DNA from: a virus
Length of the DNA stretch: 33,613 bases
Direction: 5' to 3' (one strand)
IMG/VR virus record: IMGVR_UViG_3300036790_000082
Span: 1 to 33,613 of that record
How positions within the stretch are numbered: the first letter of the stretch is position 1; each line of letters begins with the position of its first letter. The notes below the pieces were generated by a model, which saw only the letters and a program-made list of their open reading frames with translations, was not told the origin of the DNA and did not search any database. Shown piece after piece: positions 4,928 through 33,613 of the stretch. Both the position numbers and the translations under genes were made by a program.

Positions 4928-5359
4928 TCAGATGTAGGAGATGCCAGCGGAGTAGCGAGTTACCTTGCTTGCGGCGTTCCAGCTGGACTTCAGGGTAACG
5001 GCCGATGTTACGGATCCGGTTACGGAGAAGTCGGGGAGGATTGTTCCGTAGAAGTACTCGTTCGGCTCTAGCGTGTTGGCGTAGAGGTAGAAGTTACGCG
5101 GCAGGCCATCCGTCGCTGCGACGTAGGTCTGTGCAGAAGCATCGTCCATGAAGCCGGAGAAGTCACCGGAAGCGTCCGGAAGACCAGCTACGTAAACGAG
5201 GTTGGTGTCACCCATGCAGGTAACGTCGACCTTGTCGGTGGAGAAGCTGACGCTCCAGTCCGACAGGAAGGCCATCTTACCGGCTACGCCGTTTGTGGGG
5301 TCAGTCGAAGCACCAACACCCATGTAGACGACGCCGTTGCGACCGTGGAAACGACCCAT
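4928..5359 (-). CDS. Major tail (tube) protein
   Basis: This 143-residue beta-rich protein has the small size of siphophage tail tube subunits. Recognisable segments are VVYMGVGAST at the N-terminus, MAFLSDWSVSFSTDKVDVTC, then DASGDFSGFMDD and a C-terminal SVTSAVTLKSSWNAAS stretch, matching the tube protein pattern of lambda gpV/TP901-type proteins. It follows the tail terminator gene with one glycosyltransferase gene between, and precedes the chaperones and tape measure gene. The start has GGGAG 8 nt upstream. Its own promoter (5416-5444) and terminator suit a highly expressed structural protein. The assignment rests on context and composition rather than on a diagnostic motif. Confidence 0.85.
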   Translation of the reverse strand: MGRFHGRNGVVYMGVGASTDPTNGVAGKMAFLSDWSVSFSTDKVDVTCMGDTNLVYVAGLPDASGDFSGFMDDASAQTYVAATDGLPRNFYLYANTLEPNEYFYGTILPDFSVTGSVTSAVTLKSSWNAASKVTRYSAGISYI

Positions 5360-5415
5360 AGTGATAACTCCCTAGCAGGTAAGTCGTATGCGCACCGCTT
5401 GGTACGCTCACTATC

Positions 5416-5444
5416 AGGGTAGAGCGTTTACCTGTCTTGTTCAA
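5416..5444 (-). promoter_or_regulatory. Promoter for the major tail protein gene
   Basis: TTGAAC (5444-5439), a 17-nt spacer and TACCCT (5421-5416) lie about 57 bp before the gene. The downstream bases read TACCCTGATAGTGA, shared with the promoter at 18708-18736. The box overlaps the end of the upstream glycosyltransferase gene. Confidence 0.5.
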
Positions 5445-6480
5445 GTAGGGTCATCAGGCGCTTCGCGTTGTTCTCGAACGTCCTGTCAGCGACTACATTC
5501 CGGGCCAGTTCCCCTAGCGACTGCATGCGCTTCTCATCCTCGTGGTACCACTTCAGGATATCGGCGGCGTCTTCAGGTCCGGAGAACGCCGGAAGGAACG
5601 GGAACAGCTCATCGGACTCGGGACGGGAGTCGCGCAGGAACGGCAGACCGCAGGCGGCCAGCTCTACTTCACGAGGTCCCATCGACCAGCCCTTACCGGC
5701 CTGCGTGATCTCGCCCTCTGTCCGGTACACGTTGATACCTAGCTTGGACTCCCGGTAGACATCCGCCACATCGGTATTATCCATAGCGTGGTGACGCTCG
5801 TGCCCCAGATAGTCCAGCAGGAATGAGTTATCCAGCCTCTTGTTAGACCACGCTTGTCCGCCCAGGGCTATGCTGTGAGAGTTCAGCCAGTTGGTTCCTA
5901 CGTACGAGAACATGCGCTCGAAGAACTCAACCCGGGACGGGAACATGCTTCCTACGAAGGTGAAGTCAATGTCCCGGGGTCCCGAACCGGGATGGTGAAC
6001 GTCCGGGTCGTAGGCGTGAGGAATGTACTCAGCCGGGCCGAACATCCTGTACTCGTCAAGGTTCGTAGGGTCGTTCAGGATATTGATGTCCGCATGCTGT
6101 GCCCGGAGAAGCTGCTCATCGTCCTGGTACGGAGATTCCGTATGAAGGATGACAACCTTATGGCCGTGAGCGCGGATAACCTCAAGCATCTCCGGTCGTA
6201 CGTAGAAGGCAGACACGAACACTACCGCGTCGGGCCAGAAGGTATACAGGTGGTGGCCCAGGCCCTCGTATGCTGCCATGACAGCCTGACCGTCGCCCAT
6301 GGCTGCCTCGTATGCCTCAGTCTGGCGGTTGTACATCTTGGCGTCAGCGAAGAACAGCAGTCGCTCATTGGTGGCATACACCATCACCTGGTGGCCCTGA
6401 TCTTCCAGGGCCTTCTTCCATGCGTTGAACACATCCGATACCGAGAAGTCCGGTCCTGGATGAACCAGGAGAATCTTCAT
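5428..6480 (-). CDS. Glycosyltransferase, GT-B fold, CgeB-like
   Basis: This 350-residue protein starts MKILLVHPG and has two Rossmann-like halves. The C-terminal half contains IDFTFVGSMFPSR, YRESKLGINVYR and PREVELAACGLPFL, the sugar-nucleotide-binding region seen in CgeB-type and group 1 glycosyltransferases; the last 60 residues hold the typical cap with ERTFENNAKRL-like helices. It should move a sugar from a nucleotide donor to a protein or glycan. The ATG overlaps the TGA of the tail terminator gene (TGATG), so translation is coupled. It lies apart from the main sugar cassette, between two tail genes, which hints that a tail protein could be the acceptor. Donor and acceptor cannot be read from the sequence. 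Confidence 0.8.
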   Translation of the reverse strand: MKILLVHPGPDFSVSDVFNAWKKALEDQGHQVMVYATNERLLFFADAKMYNRQTEAYEAAMGDGQAVMAAYEGLGHHLYTFWPDAVVFVSAFYVRPEMLEVIRAHGHKVVILHTESPYQDDEQLLRAQHADINILNDPTNLDEYRMFGPAEYIPHAYDPDVHHPGSGPRDIDFTFVGSMFPSRVEFFERMFSYVGTNWLNSHSIALGGQAWSNKRLDNSFLLDYLGHERHHAMDNTDVADVYRESKLGINVYRTEGEITQAGKGWSMGPREVELAACGLPFLRDSRPESDELFPFLPAFSGPEDAADILKWYHEDEKRMQSLGELARNVVADRTFENNAKRLMTLLEQDR

Positions 6481-6914
6481 CAGAAGGAACTCGTGCTCAG
6501 GCTCAGGTTGACTCGCGCGGAGAAATAGGACTGGCCGGAGATCTCCACTAGCCCTACCTTGCTCACGCTGTTAACTACGATCCAGTCAACCGTGCCGCCG
6601 AGCGTGGGGTCTGCCTTTACGGCGTCCAGGATGCTCATACCGCCGGTTATCTGAGTTCCGCCGTCTACAAGATCATCCATCGCAGCCTGAGCCGCTTCAG
6701 CACTGGGAGTGTAGGACAGGAGAACCAGGAGGTCCAGGACGTATTCCTCAACGCCGTCGGTAGTTATCCCGTAGTCTACGTAGTTTGTGTCGCCCGACTT
6801 CAGGGCAAGCATAGGGGTAGTGATCGAGTCCGGAAGATACGCCCGGGAGTCAACTCCGGTGTTAGACTCTAGCTGAGCTGCCAGCGCCGTCCTGATGTTG
6901 TTCAGCTTACCCAT
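6480..6914 (-). CDS. Probable tail terminator protein
   Basis: This 144-residue protein begins GKLNNIRTALAAQLES, a helix typical of lambda gpU/HK97-type tail terminators, followed by alternating beta strands (EEYVLDLLVLLSY, GTVDWIVVNSV) and a helix rich in Ala (AEAAQAAMDDL). It lies between the neck genes and the major tail protein gene, the normal position for the protein that caps the finished tail tube. GGAGG is 4-5 nt before the ATG. The gene overlaps the upstream histone-like gene by 8 bases and the downstream glycosyltransferase by one base. The fold call comes from size, order and secondary-structure pattern; no catalytic residues are expected. Confidence 0.65.
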   Translation of the reverse strand: MGKLNNIRTALAAQLESNTGVDSRAYLPDSITTPMLALKSGDTNYVDYGITTDGVEEYVLDLLVLLSYTPSAEAAQAAMDDLVDGGTQITGGMSILDAVKADPTLGGTVDWIVVNSVSKVGLVEISGQSYFSARVNLSLSTSSF

Positions 6915-8106
6915 GAACCCTCCAGCGGATGTACCAGGCTTCGGTTACAGTCTCCGGAATCGGAGATACTTCGCCCCAGCTTATCATGCCACTGCCCAGC
7001 AGAAGACCAGCGTGCTCTATGTGCTTCGGAGTGTAGAAGCAGATCAGGGACCCGGGTATGTCGTGGTGCGTGTCAGTAAGCTCAGCGAACATCTCAACGT
7101 GAACGTTATCGAACGGATCGCTTTCCTGTAGGTAGCGCAGAGCGTCGTAGACCGTCTCCCCCGGAATCGAGTTGACCTGGTCATCATCCAGGCGGTAGTC
7201 AGTCCAGGCCAGCAGGTGGTTTGCGATGGCTACCGACAGGCAGTTGTCGACGCCCTTGTCATTACCGGCGGTCACCCACCTGGGATTAACCGCCGGGGTT
7301 ATAACGGACGCCTTCGGCTTGGCGGCTGCCTTGACCGGCTTCTTCTTAGACTGCGCAGCAGCCTTAAGAGCTGCCTTTGTAGGAGGTGTCCTTGCTGCCT
7401 TGAGACCTGCCCGGATAGCTGCCGGGCTGTTGCCTGTGCTGCCCTTCTTTTTCTTGACGGCTACCTTCTTGGGACGCTTCTTAGTCTTGACGAGCTGGCC
7501 CTTGACGTTGATCGAGTAGCCCTTAGGGATCGTCTTCGCGTTCTTGCCGATCTTGCCGATCTTCTTCAGGTGCTTGAACGCCTTGGCCTTCCGGGCCGCG
7601 TTGGTCTTGGCTGTCTGGGTAGCCTTCGCGATCAGCTTCTTCTCGATGGCGTTAGCTTGAGCCGACGTGACGGTCTGCATGCGGGAAGTGTGAGCGTGGG
7701 TGCCTTCACCCAGGGCAACGAACTTACGGGACGACGCAATGCTCTGAGCCTTGAAGACCCGGGCGGCTGCCGACTTGCGCAGGTACGCTGCCTGATGACC
7801 GGAGACGGTCTGCTGATAGGTCTTCTGCACGGCTAGGGAAACTGCCCGGGAGGCGGCTGCCGTCTTGTAGGCGGACCTCTGCTTAGCCGTAACCCGCTTT
7901 GCCGTAGCCAGGCGTCGCTGACGGTAACTTGCTGCCTTAGTCCTCAGGTTCTGTGACGCCGTGACCTTCTTGGCGGCAGCGTTGTACTTCTTCACCTGGG
8001 CAGCGTTCAGGCCCGCCGTAGGAGACTTGACCTTCTTGACCTTGGTCTTTACCGCTGCCTTCGGCTTCTTGACAGCCTTGGCGGGGGCCTTACTCTTCGC
8101 TGCCAC
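6907..8106 (-). CDS. Histone H1-like Lys/Ala-rich tail fused to a cysteine-peptidase-like domain
   Basis: This 399-residue protein has two parts. Residues 1-270 are strongly basic and rich in Ala, Lys, Arg, Thr and Pro, with runs like KAVKKPKAAVK, KKVKSPTAG and VAVKKKK that resemble histone H1 tails; such segments bind DNA or RNA. Residues 275-399 form a compact acidic domain with VDNCLSVAIANHLL (Cys289), DDDQVNSIPGETVYDALRYL and HIEHAGLLLGSGMISWG (His365), the Cys...HAG order of papain-like and NlpC/P60-like folds. The start is GTG with no clear ribosome site and it overlaps the preceding gene by 17 nt. It occupies a neck/head-completion position. It may be a virion protein that packs with DNA and cleaves or binds a partner; this is inference, and the domain could be inactive. 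Confidence 0.6.
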   Translation of the reverse strand: MAAKSKAPAKAVKKPKAAVKTKVKKVKSPTAGLNAAQVKKYNAAAKKVTASQNLRTKAASYRQRRLATAKRVTAKQRSAYKTAAASRAVSLAVQKTYQQTVSGHQAAYLRKSAAARVFKAQSIASSRKFVALGEGTHAHTSRMQTVTSAQANAIEKKLIAKATQTAKTNAARKAKAFKHLKKIGKIGKNAKTIPKGYSINVKGQLVKTKKRPKKVAVKKKKGSTGNSPAAIRAGLKAARTPPTKAALKAAAQSKKKPVKAAAKPKASVITPAVNPRWVTAGNDKGVDNCLSVAIANHLLAWTDYRLDDDQVNSIPGETVYDALRYLQESDPFDNVHVEMFAELTDTHHDIPGSLICFYTPKHIEHAGLLLGSGMISWGEVSPIPETVTEAWYIRWRVHG

Positions 8107-8347
8107 GGCAAGTCACGGGCGCGCTGAACCCGAACCTCCAGCCGTTCAGGTCAATGCCCGAGCCGGAGATCTCCGTATGAGCTGACAGGGTGCCGTGCGG
8201 GTCCATGCCGACAGACGTCTCTACATCCTCAGCACCTACCGCAGGCTCATCCTCGGACTTACCGGAGTCCTGAAGATCGACCCTGACTACCTTGCTCGTG
8301 GACTCGTACATCCAGAAGCGCTTCCCGAAACCAAAAATCAGTCGCAT
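8090..8347 (-). CDS. Small neck-region protein, unknown
   Basis: This 85-residue protein begins MRLIFGFGKRFWMYES; an in-frame ATG further upstream (8383) would overlap the connector gene and is rejected. The middle is acidic (SGKSEDEPAVGAEDVE) and the end is beta-like (GIDLNGWRFGFSAPV). It lies between the connector gene and the histone-like gene, where a head-tail stopper or other head-completion protein is expected. I do not recognise the family. The upstream base order gives only a weak purine-rich ribosome site, so coupling to the connector gene, 7 bp upstream, is likely. Confidence 0.6.
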   Translation of the reverse strand: MRLIFGFGKRFWMYESTSKVVRVDLQDSGKSEDEPAVGAEDVETSVGMDPHGTLSAHTEISGSGIDLNGWRFGFSAPVTCRGSEE

Positions 8348-8354
8348 CTCTAGA

Positions 8355-9338
8355 TCATACCCCCACAAGGTTCCTGGGCTCACGGTACTTAGCCAGAAGC
8401 TCCATTACCTCGGGGTTCGCCTGGGTCTTGACCATGCCTAGCTCTCCCATACCGGCGATGCCCCAGGGCGCGTCCTTCATCTTGAAGAGGTCGACCGCCA
8501 GGAGAAGAGCAGCGTGGGTAACGTTCTGGGGGATCTCCGCCCAGCCCCAGGTTCCCGTGATCTTCACGCGGTTGTTGGGAGTGTAAGCCCAGACGAACGG
8601 AAGCATCTCTCCGCCGGGAGTAACTCCGGCGTCCACGCCGTTCAGCAGCACTCGCACGAAGTCGTGGGGACGGGCCTCTCCGAGGTTGCGCGGGTTGTAC
8701 TGCTCGCTGTAGCGGAGTGTCTGGAAGTCCTGGCCCTCTGTCCAGATCGTGTTGTAGTCGCCGTTGCCCTCGTAGTCCAGCGCGAATTCCGTGATGCTGC
8801 CGGGAACGATCGGGTCGATGAACAGCTCGTAGATGCTGTCGTAGCTGTAAGTACGAGGCTCTATGACCTGCATGAAGTGCTGCCCGCACAGGTCGTGGAT
8901 CAGGGTTGTCGAGGTGATGCAGGCCCGCTGGTACTCGTAATCATCCTTGGACTGCCCGGAGACGTCGTTCAGGGAGGACTTCAGTTCTTCCATGGAGATG
9001 TACGTGCGGTTACGACCGGCCGCGCTGTTCATGTCAGTCAGGCGGAAGGCCCCTGCGGTTACCTGAGCACCGTTGACTACGCCTGTTCCTACTCCTACCC
9101 AGGTGTAGTTCCACAGCCCGTAGATGCCGTCGTCGGGAACCTGGTAGCTGTACAGGTAGTTGCCCGTGGTGACCCTGATTACATCTCCCGGGTCTACGGT
9201 GATCGAAGTTCCGGTCGGGTCCGTCAGTACCAGGGTGATGGTTGTCGGGTCAACGGCAACGCCGTTAGCGTTCAGGAACACGACCTTTACGGGCACCTGA
9301 GCGTTCGGAGTGTTGTAGTAGATGGGAAGGTTCGCCAT
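8355..9338 (-). CDS. Head-to-tail connector/adaptor with N-terminal Ig-like domain
   Basis: This 327-residue protein has two parts. Residues 1-105 look like an Ig-like or BppU-N-type beta domain (PVKVVFLNANG, TITLVLTDPTG, GNYLYSYQVPDDGIYG). Residues 110-327 match the HK97 gp6-like connector pattern: TYISMEELKSSLNDVS at the start, an all-helical core with YQRACITSTTLIHDLCG, a beta arm (YDSIYELFIDPIVPG), and the closing VKITGTWGWAEIPQNVTHAALLLAV, which is characteristic of this family. It joins the portal ring to the neck. An added Ig-like module exposed at the neck could bind host surface sugars. AAGGAG lies 8 nt before the ATG; the duplicated promoter element lies further upstream. Confidence 0.8.
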   Translation of the reverse strand: MANLPIYYNTPNAQVPVKVVFLNANGVAVDPTTITLVLTDPTGTSITVDPGDVIRVTTGNYLYSYQVPDDGIYGLWNYTWVGVGTGVVNGAQVTAGAFRLTDMNSAAGRNRTYISMEELKSSLNDVSGQSKDDYEYQRACITSTTLIHDLCGQHFMQVIEPRTYSYDSIYELFIDPIVPGSITEFALDYEGNGDYNTIWTEGQDFQTLRYSEQYNPRNLGEARPHDFVRVLLNGVDAGVTPGGEMLPFVWAYTPNNRVKITGTWGWAEIPQNVTHAALLLAVDLFKMKDAPWGIAGMGELGMVKTQANPEVMELLAKYREPRNLVGV

Positions 9339-12504: not shown

Positions 12505-12975
12505 CTAGAGGTGCCGCTTACTCAGCCACTCGCGCCACAGTGAGACCTTCGGCTTTCCCTTCGGATACCAGTCTCCTGTGTACCAGATCACATGAAGAAT
12601 TCCTGCGCCCTCGATGATCTTCCGGCATCCGCCACATGGTTCGTCGGTCAGGTACATGTGAGATCCCACTGCCCGGGTACCGGCACGGATGACCGCGTTC
12701 TGTTCCGCGTGGAGCGCGATGCAAGCTCCGGGTCCTGTGTCGTAGGAGCTTCCCGGGGCTACTTCCTGAGTCGTCAGCCGTCCGCGAGGGCACGCGCCAG
12801 CGGTAAGGCATCCTGGACGGCCCGCAGGGGCACCGTTGTAGCCCGTAGAGATGATCTGACGGTCAGGCCCCACGATCACGGCTCCGACCTGCCTGCGGGT
12901 GCAGTCCGCGCGTTTGGCGACAGCATCGCTGATCTGAAGGAAATACTGGTCCCAGCCGGGCCTAACAGCAGCCAC
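12505..12975 (-). CDS. dCMP deaminase
   Basis: The protein converts dCMP to dUMP, feeding dTMP synthesis. It has 156 residues with the zinc motifs of the family: His89-Ala-Glu91 (HAEQNAV) and Cys114-x2-Cys117 (DEPCGGC). Residues 24-50 (ADCTRRQVGAVIVGP, STGYNGAP) match the substrate region of dCMP deaminases, and the inserted Gly/Cys-rich loop (AGRPGCLTAGACPRG) is typical of phage and bacterial forms with a second zinc site. The start appears to be GTG, overlapping the preceding gene by 14 nt. It is placed at the end of the sugar/methyltransferase operon rather than with the other nucleotide genes at 29-31 kb. Confidence 0.92.
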   Translation of the reverse strand: MAAVRPGWDQYFLQISDAVAKRADCTRRQVGAVIVGPDRQIISTGYNGAPAGRPGCLTAGACPRGRLTTQEVAPGSSYDTGPGACIALHAEQNAVIRAGTRAVGSHMYLTDEPCGGCRKIIEGAGILHVIWYTGDWYPKGKPKVSLWREWLSKRHL

Positions 12976-13150
12976 AGCTCTGCATCCCCTGGTAGTCCAT
13001 GCCTGCCTCGAAGACAGCCCGGAGAACGTCCAGGGTGTCTGCCGGAAGGATGACTGAGTTCTTGGCCAGGTATCCCAGAGCCTCTTCCGGCGTCATGGGG
13101 TCGCGGAAGCTGGCAACGGGGCGGTCGTTGTAGTTCACGGTCGCTTCCAC
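12962..13150 (-). CDS. Hypothetical small protein
   Basis: This 62-residue protein has the segment DPMTPEEALGYLAKNSVILPADTLDVLRAVFEAGMDYQG, helical in pattern, and ends in CGCC. The start is uncertain: a GTG at 13150 sits too close to GAGGAG, and a second GTG five codons in is better spaced. It overlaps both neighbours (methyltransferase upstream by 16 nt, deaminase downstream by 14 nt), so coupled translation is likely. Family not recognised. Confidence 0.55.
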   Translation of the reverse strand: MEATVNYNDRPVASFRDPMTPEEALGYLAKNSVILPADTLDVLRAVFEAGMDYQGMQSCGCC

Positions 13151-13695
13151 GCTCCTCGGTGCGCTGTGTCCCAGTCGTCTAGTACGGTGCTGAACCCGGC
13201 AGGCTGGCGCTCAAGGGCTCCGCCGAAGATGATTGCCCCGGACTTCATCTCTGAGTAGATACGCTGCTCTAGCTGGTCCTGTAGAACCGGGTCACGGAAC
13301 GGGCGGTACATCCAGATGATGTCAGCCCGGCTGTAGCTGCTTCCGTCATACGCGAGGGCATCTCCTACCCACACCGGCCCGCGACCGCGCTGCTCTGCGA
13401 CTGTAGCCATGGTCTCGTCGTACTCGATGCCGGAGGTGGCCAGGCCGAACAGCTCTCGGGCGACCAGGGACTTGGTGCCGACACCAGAGCCTACTTCCAG
13501 GAAGTCCGAGCCTTCTGCCTCAGCCACGCACTCGAACAGCATCGCGGTGAACTCGGCTAGCTGGAATGGCATCCAGGACGTGCGGATCTTGTCGCCGCCT
13601 TGCAGCATGTAGGCACGGTCGTCCTCGTAGGCTGCGCGAATTAGAGACTGGACCTGAACGGCACGGCTGTACTTAAGAAGCGGATGAGTAATCAT
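13135..13695 (-). CDS. Class I SAM-dependent methyltransferase-like protein
   Basis: This 186-residue protein has motif I FLEVGSGVGTKS (residues 65-76) with the Glu/Gly pattern of the SAM-binding loop, a motif II-like GIEYDE acidic end of strand 2, and WVGDALAYDG at the motif III position. It lacks a DPPY or NPPY DNA-methylase motif (WMYRPFRDP is in that place), so it more likely methylates a small molecule, sugar or protein. It lies next to a 4,6-dehydratase and glycosyltransferases, where O-methylation of a sugar is a reasonable role. The ATG has TAGGTT 6 nt upstream and only a weak GGGG ribosome site. Confidence 0.7.
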   Translation of the reverse strand: MITHPLLKYSRAVQVQSLIRAAYEDDRAYMLQGGDKIRTSWMPFQLAEFTAMLFECVAEAEGSDFLEVGSGVGTKSLVARELFGLATSGIEYDETMATVAEQRGRGPVWVGDALAYDGSSYSRADIIWMYRPFRDPVLQDQLEQRIYSEMKSGAIIFGGALERQPAGFSTVLDDWDTAHRGAWKRP

Positions 13696-13701
13696 GGCCC
13701 C

Positions 13702-13707
13702 AACCTA
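13702..13707 (-). promoter_or_regulatory. -10 box TAGGTT, 6 nt before the methyltransferase ATG
   Basis: TAGGTT lies exactly 6 nt before the start at 13695, in the short gap after the dehydratase gene. It belongs to the leaderless set. Confidence 0.4.
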
Positions 13708-13712
13708 TCACA

Positions 13713-14756
13713 CTACAGAAGCCACTCGGGATGATCCAGAGACCACTTAACCAGGCGGTGGAGAGAGTCCTCGAAAGGAACGGGCATTTCCCAGCCGAGA
13801 GCATTCAGCTTGGATCCGTCCAGTGCGTAGTGGGGATCGTGCCCCGGCCGCGTCTTGTGGAAGTCAACAAGCTCGTACTTCAGCGGCTTGCCCACGTGGT
13901 CAGCGATCATGTGAGCCATGGTCAGGTTGTCGATCCGGTCAGGGGCAACCACGTTGTACCGGTCGGCTCGCAGGATCTGTCCGTTGTAGCTGTTCTCTCC
14001 GAAGATCACGGGCTTCTTGTTCCGAAGCAGGAACAGGACACCGTCAGCCAGGTTCCTGGCGTGGATGTAAACCCTGGTGCCGATGTTCCCGGGAGTGCCG
14101 TGGATGGACACTAGGCCGCCGGAGGCTACCTTAGCGATAGTAGACGGGACGAACTTCTCCGGATCCTGGCGCTCACCGATCATGTTCATGCAGTTGATGA
14201 TCTGGAGAGGAACTCCGTAGGTGCGCCAGTAGGAGAGCGCGATGGCTTCCTGTGCGGCCTTGGAACCGGCATACGGGTTGCTAGGCAGGATCGGAGACCA
14301 CTCTGCATGACCGGAGGTGTCGTCGGATGTTACAGGCCCGTAGACCTCATCGGTTGAGATCCACACGAAGTTCTTCGGCTTGACGATGCGGGCCAGCTCC
14401 AGCATGTTCAGGGCGATGTCCACGTTGTTGCGCGTGAAGGTAACCGGATCCGTGATCGAGCGGTCTACGTGGCTCTCAGACGCGAACGACACGATGTAGT
14501 CGATGTCGCCCATGCGCTGGATAGTCTGATCGCTGAACGGAGCCGCCAGATCGTGGGTGATTACTGACAGGCGCTTGCGGTAAGAAGGCTTAGCCGCCAT
14601 GACTTCGTTGATCCGGTCGGTCTTGCCCTTGTGCCTGAAGGAGTCTGTTACGATGACGTGCCAGTCGGTTTCCGCGAAGATGTGCTCCAGGAAGTGGTGG
14701 CCTACGAAGCCACCGGCTCCGGTGATCAGAATTGAGGGCTTGCGTGTTCGTGCCAT
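13713..14756 (-). CDS. NDP-sugar 4,6-dehydratase (RmlB-like, extended SDR family)
   Basis: This 347-residue protein has the NAD-binding motif TGAGGFVG (12-19), SESHVDRSI near 93-101, the dehydratase triad region STDEVYG (Asp136, Glu137) and Tyr162-x3-Lys166 (YAGSK). The TDE triplet and YxxxK point to a dTDP-glucose 4,6-dehydratase-like enzyme giving a 4-keto-6-deoxy sugar. The C-terminal half carries the usual substrate region (RVYIHARNLADGV, NGQILRADRYNV, KTRPGHDPHYALDGSKL), which strongly recalls RmlB. In this cassette it would make an activated deoxysugar for the neighbouring glycosyltransferases. TAGACT lies 6 nt before the ATG. Confidence 0.9.
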   Translation of the reverse strand: MARTRKPSILITGAGGFVGHHFLEHIFAETDWHVIVTDSFRHKGKTDRINEVMAAKPSYRKRLSVITHDLAAPFSDQTIQRMGDIDYIVSFASESHVDRSITDPVTFTRNNVDIALNMLELARIVKPKNFVWISTDEVYGPVTSDDTSGHAEWSPILPSNPYAGSKAAQEAIALSYWRTYGVPLQIINCMNMIGERQDPEKFVPSTIAKVASGGLVSIHGTPGNIGTRVYIHARNLADGVLFLLRNKKPVIFGENSYNGQILRADRYNVVAPDRIDNLTMAHMIADHVGKPLKYELVDFHKTRPGHDPHYALDGSKLNALGWEMPVPFEDSLHRLVKWSLDHPEWLL

Positions 14757-14762
14757 GGGTGA

Positions 14763-14768
14763 AGTCTA
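14763..14768 (-). promoter_or_regulatory. -10 box TAGACT, 6 nt before the 4,6-dehydratase ATG
   Basis: TAGACT sits 6 nt before the ATG at 14756. Its TAG is also the stop codon of the upstream glycosyltransferase. A GAGGAG lies 12 nt before the ATG, too far for an ideal ribosome site. Confidence 0.45.
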
Positions 14769-15407
14769 CTCCTCATCTAGCAGTACGTTGAGCCACGGGT
14801 ACTCGGGAAGCGGCGGGATGATGTCAGTAGGCAGAGGCCCGCGTCCTCGAAGCGTGTGCCAGTGATCACCGGAGTTGAACGTGTAGTGGAAGATCTGCTC
14901 GTCAATGAAGACTTCCGTCTTTACCCTCCCGGCTGCCCGCTGGTCTTCCGTCCACTCGTCGTCGCAGGTGTAGCCACGGAACTTTACCGCCTGAAACAGG
15001 TCCCGGCGCATCGGGTTGAAGTACTGATGATCGCGGTAGTGGATGTTACCGGTGAAGTTCACGCCCGGCCAGTGCTGCAAGGAGTGGTAAACGTCAGTCG
15101 CTGTGGGCTGCCCGTTCGTTGTGTGAAGTACCCGGAACCCGATCTGGTCAGGATTGCTTTCCAGGGCGCTCAGTACGCGCTCCAGGTAGTCCGGAGATAT
15201 GGAGTCATCGTCCTGGATGACGGAAACGTAGTCTCCTGTAGCAGCATCAGACAGGGCCTGAAGCTTCTCCCTGTATGAAATCCGAAGATTGTCCCGGTAC
15301 AGGAGAACTCCCACTTCAGGAACTAGCTGCTCGTCTAGAACCTTCAGCAGTCTGCACAGCTTCTCGTGACGATGAGGAACTGTCGGTATAAGGAACTGGT
15401 ACCTCAT
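14766..15407 (-). CDS. Glycosyltransferase, GT-A fold, family 2-like
   Basis: This 213-residue protein starts MRYQFLIPTVPHRHEKL; its ATG overlaps the previous TGA (ATGA). It contains GDYVSVIQDDDSISPDYLERVL, where DDD is the metal- and nucleotide-sugar-binding motif of GT-A enzymes, and a later region with DDEWTEDQR as a possible catalytic base segment. The protein is short for GT2 enzymes and probably consists of the catalytic domain only, with no membrane segment, so it should act in the cytoplasm. It is the last of four coupled glycosyltransferase-like genes. Donor and acceptor are not known. Confidence 0.8.
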   Translation of the reverse strand: MRYQFLIPTVPHRHEKLCRLLKVLDEQLVPEVGVLLYRDNLRISYREKLQALSDAATGDYVSVIQDDDSISPDYLERVLSALESNPDQIGFRVLHTTNGQPTATDVYHSLQHWPGVNFTGNIHYRDHQYFNPMRRDLFQAVKFRGYTCDDEWTEDQRAAGRVKTEVFIDEQIFHYTFNSGDHWHTLRGRGPLPTDIIPPLPEYPWLNVLLDEE

Positions 15408-16066
15408 TTGTGCTTCCACCAACATCCTGGAGTGCGTGCATCAGCACGAAATACGGTATGAACAGGGTGACCGGTTACTATGCGGTCGGGGTATTCGTTG
15501 TACAGCAAGTACTGGAAAGCAGGCATGTCGTTGTCTGCGCCCAGGTCTTCGAATAGCAGCCATTCACGTACGAACTTCTGGAAGGTAAGAACGTCGGCGC
15601 TGAGCATACCGGCGTTTAGCACGATCTTGTCAGCGTTCCTGGAGTACCAGTTGTTGAACATAGGCCCCTTCTGGTTAAGCCACGGCTCTTGGCCGATCAC
15701 CCGGGTCTCGCTGCCAACGTACAAGTACCCCTGCTCCATGTCTGGAGCAGGGTCGCTGAGCATTTCTGTGTCAGTTCCGTCGATGCCCATAACATACTGG
15801 ATATCCGACCTGGTATCCAGGTACTTGGACATCTCCCTCCAGCGCCTCCAGTACGGGTTAGCTCCCGGCTGACGGTCTACGTGCACGAACTGGGGTCCGT
15901 CGATGTCAAGATCAGTGAAGACCACGTACTCCCACCCGAAGGAGTCCGCCCCGGCCTTCAGGGTCGCAAGGCTGTTCCTTACAGTGTCGTGATCTCCGTC
16001 CCAGGTTATTCCCCTAGTGGGGTCTGGAGTTGAGGTCAGGTAGGCAGTCATGACTATATTGCTCAT
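15404..16066 (-). CDS. Glycosyltransferase-like protein (GT-A type)
   Basis: This 220-residue protein begins MSNIVMTAYLTSTPDP. It has EYVVFTDLDID and later QYVMGIDGTDTEML, a D-x-D-type pattern as in GT-A transferases that act on cell-surface sugars, and KIVLNAGMLSADVLTFQKFVREWLLFE, a segment resembling the NAG motif region of GT8-like enzymes. GGGGAGG lies 8 nt before the ATG. Both ends overlap neighbouring genes by four bases (ATGA), so the four genes form one translation unit. The fold call is from motif pattern and is less certain than for its neighbours. Confidence 0.65.
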   Translation of the reverse strand: MSNIVMTAYLTSTPDPTRGITWDGDHDTVRNSLATLKAGADSFGWEYVVFTDLDIDGPQFVHVDRQPGANPYWRRWREMSKYLDTRSDIQYVMGIDGTDTEMLSDPAPDMEQGYLYVGSETRVIGQEPWLNQKGPMFNNWYSRNADKIVLNAGMLSADVLTFQKFVREWLLFEDLGADNDMPAFQYLLYNEYPDRIVTGHPVHTVFRADARTPGCWWKHK

Positions 16067-21067: not shown

Positions 21068-22636
21068 TCACTCGCTGTCTTCGCCGTCGAAGAACCACGG
21101 ATCGTAACGCTTCTCCTGAAGTGCGAGCAGACGGCGCTTGTTCTCAGCTAGTGCCTGCTTCTCCTTCAGTTCCTTCTCGGCTTCTGCCTTCTCCTTGGCG
21201 TCAGCGTCTTCGTCGTCCTTGGACTCAGGCTGTCCCGGTGCGGCGCGGCCTTCTAGGTCGTCCTCTTCGTTGTCGCCGTCCTCATCCTGCTCGACATCGT
21301 CTTCAGCGGCACGCTGTGCATTCGATGCCTTCGCGGTCTTGGCTGCAAGAGTGTCAGTTCCGGAGGTGGTTCCGGGAGCCGAGTCAGTGTCTGCGGGAGC
21401 GGCAGCCTTCGGCTGGGATGCGCCTACATCGTCTTCGTCATCGTTCTCGGACTTGTCCTGGTCCTCGTTCGTGGAGCTGTCACGCTTGGACTCGTCGTCG
21501 GAGTCGTCCTTGTCCGAGTCAGCCTTCTTGTCGTTCTCGTCCTGTAGCCACGGCGGGAGCTGCTTCTTGGCACGCTCTTCGTCGTCTGCGTCGAACTCTA
21601 CGCCGAGGTCACGCTGCTGGCTGGAAATCGCCCAGACGAGCAGTTCCCCGTCCGACATGCGCTTGCTGTCATCGGAGTCGGAGCTGATCCCGAACTTCTT
21701 GGCTGCTGCCTTGACCTTCGGAAGAGCCTGCTGGCCGAACTGAGCGCCCTGACCGATGCGGGAAAGCGCGTTGCGGACGTGTGCAGCGTCGTGGATCGGG
21801 AAGTGGCGCTTGGAACGGGGAGTGGTCTTGCCGCTCTCGTCCTTGGTGCCGCCGTCCTCGATGTAGGCGAAATCGGAGTCGGGAAGGTCGTTCTTCGAGG
21901 CCGTGCTGATCTTCGCACGACCCTCTTCGGGGTTAGCCATTTCTGCGTCCTCCTTGGGGGCCGTGTTTTCTGTCGGTCGATCTGACCGCTTGAACAGCTT
22001 GGGTAGCTGGCGATTTTCCAGCAGGGAGCGGATTTCTGCCGGGTCAGCGTCGAACTGACGAGCCAGGGAGTCAATCGCGCCCAGGTAGTTGCGAACGGAA
22101 GCCGTGGCGTCCGGGTACGCGGGAGTGTTTACGGGAGCTACATCAACCAGCTCCAGGTCCATCAGCGTGCGAAGGGGCAGTCCGCCGACAGAGCTGGAAC
22201 GCTCCCAGAAGTCGCCGCCTTCGGGTACACGGAAAGCGAACGAGGAACTGGAGACATCTCCGCGCTTGGTAAGAACGGCTACGTCATTGCCTGCACGGGT
22301 GTCCGGGATCTCCGTGTCGTAGTGCAGGCCGGTCGCGTCAACGCTCAGTACGCAGGTTCCGGCCTTCGTGGTGCCGAGAAGCCAGTCGTCGTCGTGGTTG
22401 TAACGGCACACGACGTCAGGGAATCCCTGAGCCATAGAATTGCGGAATGCCTGTCCGTGGACCTGCTCGACAAAGCCCCCGAGGTTGCGGGAAAGCTTGC
22501 CGAACACTGATCCGTAGCCCTGGATGTGGGGGCGGTTCGACCCGGCTACATTTCGCAGCTCCGGGCGGAACTCAGCAGAGGCAGGGTTAAACCGACGTTC
22601 TACCGCCAGCCCGCCTTCACTCCTGACCTCAGTCAC
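21068..22636 (-). CDS. Prohead protease (HK97 gp4-like) with long acidic C-terminal region
   Basis: This 522-residue protein starts at GTG with GGAGG 6 nt upstream. Residues 20-190 are the serine protease: IQGYGSVFGKLS, VVCRYNHDDDWLLG (catalytic His81), RGDVSSSSFAFRV (Ser132, the S before FAF) and LELVDVAPVNTPAYPDA, standard for HK97-type enzymes. Residues 240-320 hold a separate module (NDLPDSDFAYIEDGG, KRHFPIHDAAHVRNALSRI, KVKAAAKKFGI) that recurs in actinophage proteins (possibly DUF6582). Residues 335-475 are extremely acidic and low-complexity, and the end is a coiled coil (EKELKEKQALAENKRRLLALQEKR). The tail is far longer than a simple protease; a scaffold-like or capsid-interior role is likely. 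Confidence 0.9.
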   Translation of the reverse strand: MTEVRSEGGLAVERRFNPASAEFRPELRNVAGSNRPHIQGYGSVFGKLSRNLGGFVEQVHGQAFRNSMAQGFPDVVCRYNHDDDWLLGTTKAGTCVLSVDATGLHYDTEIPDTRAGNDVAVLTKRGDVSSSSFAFRVPEGGDFWERSSSVGGLPLRTLMDLELVDVAPVNTPAYPDATASVRNYLGAIDSLARQFDADPAEIRSLLENRQLPKLFKRSDRPTENTAPKEDAEMANPEEGRAKISTASKNDLPDSDFAYIEDGGTKDESGKTTPRSKRHFPIHDAAHVRNALSRIGQGAQFGQQALPKVKAAAKKFGISSDSDDSKRMSDGELLVWAISSQQRDLGVEFDADDEERAKKQLPPWLQDENDKKADSDKDDSDDESKRDSSTNEDQDKSENDDEDDVGASQPKAAAPADTDSAPGTTSGTDTLAAKTAKASNAQRAAEDDVEQDEDGDNEEDDLEGRAAPGQPESKDDEDADAKEKAEAEKELKEKQALAENKRRLLALQEKRYDPWFFDGEDSE

Positions 22637-25137: not shown

Positions 25138-25611
25138 ATGCTAGCAGCGCTCGCGCTCGCCTCAGTCCTCGTTCACAACGGAGACACCCTTTCGGGCATC
25201 GCCCAGGAGCACGGCCTGTCAGTCGCCGCCGTCGAAGCGGCTAACCCGCAGATCAGCAACCCGAACGTCATCAGCGTCGGGGAGTCGGTCAGCCTGAACG
25301 GCTCGGGAAGCTACTCTCCGAGCCCGTCGCACGTCGCATCTTCATCTGCCCCCGCTACGTCCGTCTCCGTCGGCCACACGTCCGGCAGCGGCTACGAGGG
25401 CTGTGTCATCAGTCACGAGTCCGGCGGCAACTCTCATGCTGTCAACCCATCGTCCGGAGCCGGTGGCCTCTACCAGTTCCTCCCCAGCACGTGGGCGAGT
25501 CTCGGTTACAGCGGCTCCCCGCAGGACGCTCCCGTGTCCGAGCAGAACGCGGCATTCCAGAAGCTGCACTCGGAGATGGGCTCCAGCCCGTGGGAAACTG
25601 ACGGCTGCTGA
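25138..25611 (+). CDS. LysM domain plus Rpf/transglycosylase-like cell-wall protein
   Basis: This 157-residue protein starts with a short hydrophobic stretch (MLAALALASVL) that may act as a signal or be part of the fold. Residues 12-54 are a LysM domain (VHNGDTLSGIAQEHGLSVAAVEAANPQ), which binds peptidoglycan. A Ser/Pro linker follows, then residues 86-157 form a transglycosylase domain of the resuscitation-promoting-factor type: CVISHESGGNSHAVN with catalytic Glu94 and GAGGLYQFLPSTWASLG. Cys89 and the terminal Cys157 could form the disulfide known in Rpf domains. AGGAG lies 8 nt before the ATG. It lies on the opposite strand between the small portal-side genes and terminase, convergent with terminase. 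Host exit or virion-associated wall degradation is inferred. Confidence 0.85.
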   Translation: MLAALALASVLVHNGDTLSGIAQEHGLSVAAVEAANPQISNPNVISVGESVSLNGSGSYSPSPSHVASSSAPATSVSVGHTSGSGYEGCVISHESGGNSHAVNPSSGAGGLYQFLPSTWASLGYSGSPQDAPVSEQNAAFQKLHSEMGSSPWETDGC

Positions 25612-31741: not shown

Positions 31742-33613
31742 CTACAGCTTGATCCAGCTAACGCTTCCGTACACGTAGGTTGTCTTCAGGGAACTGGCGT
31801 CGATTACCACGATCTTGTAGAACCCGTAGCTGCCGGTCTGAAGGTCAGCGTTCGGGATGGCTACGGCACACTGGCCAGCCGCTGCGTTGGTGACCGTGAT
31901 AGCCGGGGAGTCTCCTCCGGATGACAGGATCAGGCTGGAGGGATCGGTGTCAGAAACACCGGCCGCCGTCTTGAAGACCATGTTGACGGTGCAGTCGGTA
32001 AGGTCTTCCGCGCTGCCGTTCAGTGTCAGGGTGGCGTTGAACGTCTGGTCGTCAAACTCGTTGAGGGTGATAGCTGTCTGCTGCATTACCGGTCCAATCA
32101 TTGCTGCGCCTGAGTCTGGGCTAGAGGTAGACCCTCCTGTGTCGAGAGACTGCACTGTTCCCCCGGACACATACGCGACGGGAGTGATGTCTCCGCCTCC
32201 CAGTATAGATGAAATCGAGCCTTCTGCCGGAGCCGGGCCTGTCACAGTGCCGCTGGACCCTTCATCAAGCGACTGGAGAGACCCGCCTGACACAGCGGAA
32301 TCCGGGGCGATGTCTCCGCTTTCGGTACTCTCGCGGCTAACCGCTCCGCCTGTATCAGGGCTGGACACAGTTCCTCCCGTGTCAGGGGCCGTGACAGAAC
32401 CGCCGGAGACCGTGGAGCCGGGTGTGATGCTACCCGTGGCTGTATCTGCCGGGCTGACGACTGCACCTGTGTCCTGAATCGTGACCGTACCGCCCGATAC
32501 CGTGCTGGAAGGCTCGATGCTGCCCGAATTAACCTGCGGGGTTAGAGAAACCGTCGTACTAGCCGCCACATGCCAGCTACGGCTTGCTATAGCTACCGAA
32601 ATAGCAGGGAGAACGAGATCGAAAGTGCCCGAAATGCTCGACGGGCCGCCCGAAATTCCTCCGATGGACGTTGACGCTAGCGAGACTACCGGCAGAGGCA
32701 GCTCGATGCTCAGACTTCCTGAAATCAGCTTGCGAGAGGCAATGTCGACCGATGGCGCGGGCAGAACAGGAGCGAAACCGCCGGAAATCAGCTTGCGCGA
32801 GGCAATATCCAGTGCAGGAGCAGGCAGAACCAGCCCGAAACTGCCGGAAACTAGCTTCCTGGAGGCAATATCCAGGGCAGGGACAGGAAGTCCGAGGTTG
32901 AGGTCTCCGGAAATGACCTTTCGCGACGATATGGCTACAGAAGGTGCCGGAAGCGCGATACTGAAGTCACCGGAAATCACCTTGGCCGATGTCGAGGCAA
33001 TAGCCACCGACGGAGCCGGAAGCACGAGGCTCAGACTTCCGGATACCAGCCTGCGAGAAGCGATAGACGTCGTAGGCGCGGGGAGCGTCAGACTGAAACT
33101 TCCGGAAATCAGCTTTCGCGAGGAGATCGCTACAGCAGGCTTCGGCAGCGCCGGGGTGAAACTTCCTGAGATCAGCTTGCGAGAGGCAATCGAGATGACA
33201 GGCTTCGGGAGAGTCAGGGTCAGCGGGCCGCTCTCAGTGTTAACCGTGGAACCGGGCTTTACTTCGACCGCTATCGCACCGTAGATGTCACTGGACTCTG
33301 TCCACCCGACAGTCATCGAGGAGCCTGTAGACGGCACTGTGGCCCCGCCTGTACACCCGGCTCCCGTGCTAGTGTCGTGGTTCTCCTTCCACCTCTGGGT
33401 TATGCCGGTAGGCCCGGAGAACGATGTAAACGACGACCCTGTGCAGACGCCAGCAGCCACCATTCCGCCGCTGGTTGTAGAGGACAGTACGGCGGTTCCG
33501 CTGGTCTTAGACGCTCCGTTGGCTATACCGGCCAGTACAGGCGTGCCGAGGGATGCTCCTCCCGTGAAGCTGAGAGAAACGCCCAGGAGCGCCTTCGACG
33601 GAGTACGGGAGTA
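31742..33613 (-). CDS. Repeat-rich surface or tail adhesin-like protein (5' end outside window)
   Basis: The frame remains open to the right edge, so at least 623 residues are present and the N-terminus is missing. The first visible part is a beta-rich Ser/Thr/Gly domain (about 120 residues). Then come about ten 21-residue repeats of the type SGSFSLVLPAPSVAIASRKLI (residues about 78-297 counted from an internal Met), a second Gly/Ser/Asp repeat block, and a C-terminal Ig-like or BppU-N-like domain (NATLTLNGSAEDLTDCTVNMVF, SYGFYKIVVIDASS). It resembles phage minor tail or receptor-binding proteins and is the first gene past the nucleotide operon. It may begin a second structural operon. Function inferred. 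Confidence 0.7.
   Translation of the reverse strand, partial: YSRTPSKALLGVSLSFTGGASLGTPVLAGIANGASKTSGTAVLSSTTSGGMVAAGVCTGSSFTSFSGPTGITQRWKENHDTSTGAGCTGGATVPSTGSSMTVGWTESSDIYGAIAVEVKPGSTVNTESGPLTLTLPKPVISIASRKLISGSFTPALPKPAVAISSRKLISGSFSLTLPAPTTSIASRRLVSGSLSLVLPAPSVAIASTSAKVISGDFSIALPAPSVAISSRKVISGDLNLGLPVPALDIASRKLVSGSFGLVLPAPALDIASRKLISGGFAPVLPAPSVDIASRKLISGSLSIELPLPVVSLASTSIGGISGGPSSISGTFDLVLPAISVAIASRSWHVAASTTVSLTPQVNSGSIEPSSTVSGGTVTIQDTGAVVSPADTATGSITPGSTVSGGSVTAPDTGGTVSSPDTGGAVSRESTESGDIAPDSAVSGGSLQSLDEGSSGTVTGPAPAEGSISSILGGGDITPVAYVSGGTVQSLDTGGSTSSPDSGAAMIGPVMQQTAITLNEFDDQTFNATLTLNGSAEDLTDCTVNMVFKTAAGVSDTDPSSLILSSGGDSPAITVTNAAAGQCAVAIPNADLQTGSYGFYKIVVIDASSLKTTYVYGSVSWIKL
32099..32530 (-). 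repeat. Gly/Ser/Asp-rich repeat block in the adhesin-like gene
   Basis: Imperfect repeats of the type GSITPGSTVSGGSVTAPDTG with runs such as VSSPDTGG and VQSLDTGG encode about 144 residues. They look like an elastic linker between the beta repeats and the C-terminal domain. Units are irregular in length. Confidence 0.65.
32573..33232 (-). repeat. About ten tandem 63-bp repeats (21-aa units) in the adhesin-like gene
   Basis: Units read SG-(S/D/G)-F/L-x-L-x-LPAP-x-V-x-IASRKLI; starts are near residues 78, 99, 120, 141, 164, 185, 206, 227, 248. Two units carry a 2-residue insertion (IASTSAKVI and LASTSIGGI). DNA copies share GAAATCAGCTTGCGNGAGGCAAT. The pattern suggests a beta-helix or beta-solenoid shaft. 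Confidence 0.85.

Follow-up and report, generated by a model that had tools for sequence, protein, structure and literature searches.

Uncultured phages encode a previously unrecorded family of proteins in which a strongly basic arm is joined to a domain predicted to adopt the C39-type papain fold, a pairing that was not found in the databases searched. The member analyzed here is encoded in a 33,613-nt (33.6-kb) IMG/VR virus record (IMGVR_UViG_3300036790_000082, positions 1–33,613; hereafter, the window). The best explanation for this protein, to which we assign a probability of roughly 40%, is that it is a Cys/His hydrolase, probably with peptidase activity, which is tethered to nucleic acid and retained throughout a single clade of tailed phages.

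The bipartite gene occupies positions 6907–8106 of the window on the minus strand and consists of a 399-aa open reading frame (ORF) with a GTG start, whose product opens with MAAK, as do those of relatives. Its neighbors, all on the same strand, are a head-tail adaptor (8355–9338; phrog_442, E = 4e-15), a small 97-aa ORF immediately upstream (8090–8383), a tail terminator (6480–6914; phrog_17840, E = 3e-15) and a glycosyltransferase (5428–6480) located between the tail terminator and the major tail protein. The ORF overlaps the start of the tail terminator by 8 nt and the 97-aa ORF by 17 nt, and thus the arrangement is operon-like; where the gene lies in this late operon, it is probably expressed late. 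The 97-aa ORF, which sits between the adaptor and the bipartite gene and goes unmentioned in the preliminary description of this DNA, adjoins the gene in the sub-clade of the window, is kept beside it in contigs L002, L080, L081, L083 and L085, and has no family match. Almost all relatives long enough to cover this region retain the glycosyltransferase, at 42–55% identity; such a fixed guest is unusual in a tail operon. Elsewhere in the window, positions 31742–33463 (minus strand) encode a 573-aa protein with many near-identical repeats (SRKLISGSF..ALPAP).

The two parts of the protein differ sharply in composition. Residues 1–276 contain 26% Lys/Arg, 22% Ala and only 0.7% Asp/Glu (net charge +69, pI 12), whereas residues 277–399 are acidic (net charge −13, pI 4.6). 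Charge, conservation and structure prediction delimit the arm as residues 1–275 (7282–8106, minus strand), and AlphaFold2 (AF2), Foldseek and the alignment delimit the domain as residues 273–399 (6910–7290, minus strand). The ORF, its composition and the codon positions bear out the initial report of a Lys/Ala-rich stretch followed by a domain with Cys289 and His365. The charge of the arm does not reflect the composition of the genome as a whole, given that the peak net charge per 100 aa is +33 in the bipartite protein vs +13 in the next of the 24 other window genes tested. A full-length AF2 model, built from six sequences, placed low-confidence long helices at residues 35–140 and 148–184 (7555–8004), with residues 185–275 (7282–7554) mostly disordered. 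All measured arms are basic, with net charges of +8 to +69 over lengths of 65–288 residues. For the six members found last, the values (+37 to +61) assume translation from the first start codon in each open frame, although the true start may be farther downstream. Several arm types, differing in length and sequence, can be distinguished: a long type with the conserved segments GHQ..A..R and RMQT.T..QA, a short type in which a KAQ..A....AAAGR.AQA-like unit occurs once or twice, and a Thr/Lys-rich type in L024/L044. NUMOD-like DNA-binding repeats were suspected by eye in the short arms and dropped when Pfam yielded no match. The charge makes nucleic acid the most likely ligand of the arm.

The neighborhood of the gene gave access to its relatives: a scan for the adaptor gene led to L002 and L006, which carry relatives at the same place, and searches with alignments then recovered more. 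Because several contigs are near-copies of one phage (L020–L023; L015/L016/L018; L025–L027; L010–L014), we count about 20 distinct relatives, each of which comes from an uncultured phage, bears a basic arm and shares 22–44% domain identity with the window protein; the alignment used below has 22 rows, two of which (L010 and L013) are nearly identical. The number of relatives at this level of divergence identifies the bipartite ORF as a real coding gene.

Database searches placed none of these proteins in a named family. The window protein had no match in Pfam, PHROGs or cultured phages, and among the PDB sequences only a weak NlpC/P60 stretch (2hbw, E = 0.84) was recovered; the relatives had no match in NCBIfam, PADLOC, cultured phages or plasmids. 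Neither PF03412 nor PF13529 gave a sequence-family match, and the PF13529 model matches no member. The claim that no standard neck protein is built this way thus held across Pfam, PHROGs, NCBIfam, PADLOC and 50,697 phage records. In tblastn searches of cultured phages, for which the queries were the full window protein, the domain by itself and three of the relatives, and of plasmids, for which one relative served as query, only a 38% stretch in a Synechococcus phage tape measure protein (E = 0.3) was recovered, and it was set aside. The window domain alone found no relatives in the viral scan, and a search of genome contigs with a six-row alignment gave no match. The same search with the L024/L044 type found one contig, binned in an Actinomycetota metagenome-assembled genome (MAG), and this bin alone has a relative among the at most 10 candidates scored per genome at first look in 396 Actinomycetota genomes. 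An apparent match in L050 was discarded, no such protein being present there, and PDB profile matches to designed toroids, RCC1 or ribosomal L18e were dismissed as products of chance or composition. Literature searches found no paper on the present protein family.

Structure prediction was more informative on the C-terminal domain. AF2 modeled residues 273–399 from a 12-sequence alignment with a pLDDT of 91.4 and a pTM of 0.88, as a helix that begins exactly at Cys289, two further helices and then strands, with His365 near the start of a strand at 364–369. The predicted fold thus has the papain-like (clan CA) layout, in which Cys opens the first helix and His lies near a strand start. In a Foldseek search against the PDB, PCAT1, the N-terminal domain of which is a C39 peptidase, occupied ranks 1–4 (probability 0.90–0.99, TM 0.49–0.57), LahT ranks 7, 8 and 11 (probability 0.72–0.82), and the C39-like domain of HlyB (3zua) rank 31 (TM 0.45). 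The Foldseek E-values are modest, at 0.02 or worse, but the agreement of several independent C39 entries gives this reading weight. Nothing fell below E = 1e-3 in a structure search of BFVD, where the best match was at 1.4e-3. A profile-profile comparison with ten actinobacterial Peptidase_C39_2 (PF13529) domains was weak (probability 5%), although the unguided alignment put Cys on Cys and His on His with a score of 21.4 vs at most 17.2 in 60 of 60 column-shuffled controls. The models therefore support a C39-type papain fold for residues 273–399. The structure prediction and Foldseek search proposed in the preliminary description returned a fold related to cysteine peptidases and not an unrelated one; of its guess of a papain or NlpC/P60 fold, the cysteine-peptidase part stood, but the predicted fold is C39-like rather than NlpC/P60.

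Across the 22-row alignment, Cys289 (7240–7242, minus strand), the candidate nucleophile, and His365 (7012–7014, minus strand), the candidate catalytic base, are both invariant down to 22% identity, so that the conservation expected of homologues was indeed found; Ala293, Trp377, Gly378, Trp391 and Trp395 are likewise invariant. In LahT, the active site consists of Gln21, Cys27, His101 and Asp117, and the C39 Gln stands 6 residues before Cys (PMC6363468). An Asn or Gln is present 6–7 residues before Cys in all phage rows except the L051/L052/L078 clade, and in the window this candidate oxyanion residue is Asn282 (7261–7263, minus strand). No Asp, Asn or Glu is conserved after His in the 22 aligned rows; therefore, the C39 triad is incomplete and we do not file the protein as a C39 member. 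Near the expected place of the Asp-Pro of C39_2 lies the segment Ser376-Trp377-Gly378 (6973–6981, minus strand), in which Trp and Gly are invariant, and on our reading of the alignment, Trp may stand in place of the C39 Asp. Compared with the C39 domains (PF03412) of PCAT1 and LahT, the phage domain thus shares the predicted fold, a first helix starting at Cys, a strand that carries His and, in most members, the Asn or Gln before Cys, but it is fused to a basic arm instead of a transporter and lacks both the conserved triad Asp and a sequence-level match. Peptidase_C39_2 is alike in the coincidence of Cys and His above the shuffled controls and differs in its invariant Asp-Pro, which was not found in the phage members.

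These residues allow two readings of the domain, as an enzyme with a Cys/His dyad or as a module that binds its partner. The second alternative, which we consider somewhat unlikely but the strongest of the rivals, is a non-catalytic C39-like module that would serve as a peptide-binding adaptor, as in HlyB, with the arm anchoring the bound partner to DNA. It agrees with the triad acid not being conserved and with the invariant Trp-Gly nearby, and also with the presence among the structural matches of the dead C39-like domain of HlyB, which is of the same fold class, likewise has an incomplete active site, and tethers its substrate without cutting (PMC6363468). However, dead C39-like domains are defined by the loss of Cys (PMC6363468), whereas in the phage proteins Cys and His are invariant in all 22 rows, and catalysis is favored over binding because here the Cys never varies.

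The genomic position of the gene bears on the remaining alternatives. The usual order in the window and most relatives is adaptor, the small ORF where present, bipartite gene, tail terminator, glycosyltransferase and tail tube; in L024/L044, the gene comes after a terminator-like gene and before a tube-like gene (neighbors named by eye). The gene is present in 13 of the 14 related contigs, the exception being a 9.4-kb fragment; as possession of the gene was the reason for retrieving 10 of these 14, the informative contigs are the five retrieved by the adaptor alone, four of which have it. The gene tree broadly follows the adaptor tree (11 phages, Mantel p = 0.0014). Its presence in nearly all related contigs and the agreement of the trees indicate that the gene is kept rather than passing cargo, and this pattern is consistent with prolonged co-inheritance in the clade, accompanied by local moves.

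Such moves are apparent in G002, G004, G005 and L078, where the gene and terL, which encodes the large terminase subunit, are on opposite strands about 2 kb apart; in G002 and G004, the tail terminator comes about 200 nt after the adaptor, with no bipartite gene between them (G005 was considered together with G004, the two copies of the bipartite gene being identical). Because of this relocation beside terL in four contigs, the gene is not fixed in the structural module, as a virion or neck protein would be expected to be. Furthermore, the adaptor-glycosyltransferase interval is a cargo zone in the relatives, where genes for K+ channels, small membrane proteins and a ribonucleotide reductase with an intein occur alongside HNH genes, so that the neck position alone does not make the protein a part of the virion.

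The cargo itself includes several genes of note. K+ channel genes lie near the tail terminator and beside the C39-like gene in L025 (8213–8554, plus strand), L054 (3821–4162, minus strand) and L082 (5500–5817, plus strand), and encode proteins of about 113 aa with the pore signature TVGYGD; those of L025 and L054 match PF07885 (E = 8e-14 and 6e-12, respectively), that of L082 is a homologue, and that of L025 also matches phrog_14690. Five phages carry, adjacent to the C39-like gene or not far from it, a member of a family of small membrane proteins with the conserved Cys/His cluster NCHxxxCWRxGRxxxxxGxxxxC and no confident family match (L006, 2824–3141; L017, 6378–6797; L025, 7833–8216; L054, 4104–4583; L082, about 5121–5384). 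In L002, a ribonucleotide reductase in which Pfam identifies the LAGLIDADG and splicing domains of an intein is located between the tail terminator and the glycosyltransferase (12888–15968, plus strand).

The preliminary description had taken the location of the gene in the neck cluster as a sign that the protein may be in the virion and proposed that it is packaged with DNA through its basic arm and acts on a host protein at injection. Its placement between the adaptor and the tail terminator was verified, but the virion inference is weakened by the cargo zone and the terL-side copies. The proposal as a whole is, in our estimate, improbable, a little more so than a binding module: in the window and most relatives, the gene belongs to the late structural operon and overlaps the tail terminator, the arm is strongly basic, and injected internal proteins are known in phage T4 (PMC12373910), but in four contigs the gene sits beside terL on the opposite strand, and the interval carries plainly non-structural cargo in relatives. 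A more specific version, in which a protease anchored on DNA by its histone-like arm would be delivered with the genome and, through cleavage at the incoming DNA, would disarm a host nucleoid or defense protein, is less probable still. A structural or assembly role in the neck, as a connector, stopper or tail assembly protease, is quite improbable: the position between adaptor and tail terminator and the co-inheritance with the adaptor would suit it, but the neck closes up without the gene in G002 and G004, where the gene lies near terL instead, and the arm varies more than fourfold in length among relatives (65 to 288 residues); moreover, the window encodes its own head maturation protease (21068–22636), which makes a capsid protease role unlikely. 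Least probable is that the protein hydrolyzes the cell wall during lysis or entry, in the manner of NlpC/P60 enzymes or amidases, a role that could be read into the weak NlpC/P60 matches (2hbw with phmmer at E = 0.84; Cg1735 and Spr with Foldseek at probabilities of 0.54 and 0.18), but C39 domains score far higher in Foldseek, the gene lies away from the tail tip, a LysM/transglycosylase-like protein is encoded separately in the window (25138–25611), and no secretion signal was seen when the protein was inspected by eye.

LysM/transglycosylase-like proteins of this kind are common in Actinomycetota. Together with the relative on a contig binned in an Actinomycetota MAG, the one in the window provides a lead, not a demonstration, that the hosts of these phages are probably Actinomycetota. 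The basic tails of the actinobacterial HU protein (HupB) are also Lys/Ala-rich; the likeness to the phage arm is one of composition only, and the phage protein has no HU domain.

The architecture of the sequence, its conservation and its places in the genomes were observed and the fold was computed; for the tethered hydrolase, we infer nucleic-acid binding, catalysis by a dyad in place of the triad, proteolysis in preference to other Cys/His chemistry, and the target. The basic arm, part helical and part disordered, would bind nucleic acid by charge and thereby enrich the protein at the host nucleoid or on phage DNA that has been packaged, and the C39-type domain, with its Cys289/His365 dyad and an oxyanion-type Asn, would cut a protein held near the DNA. 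Candidate targets are a host nucleoid protein, a host defense protein or a phage assembly protein. This reading draws on the confident AF2 model and C39 matches, the invariant Cys and His, the basic arm in every relative measured and the retention of the gene; against it stand the incomplete triad, the absence of Asn282 from L051/L052/L078, Foldseek E-values of at least 0.02, the C39_2 probability of 5% and the varied arms. The internal proteins Ip1–3 of T4-like phages are delivered with DNA and act on host defense (PMC12373910); the parallel with the proteins described here is one of idea only, as the two groups are not known to be related and homology is not expected.

These findings add a conserved, unnamed phage protein family, in which a C39-type fold occurs outside exporters and is accompanied by a basic arm. 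Should proteolysis by the domain take place with the arm bound to DNA, the family would represent a local proteolysis device of phages, an idea that, thanks to the conservation of Cys and His, is directly testable by point mutation.
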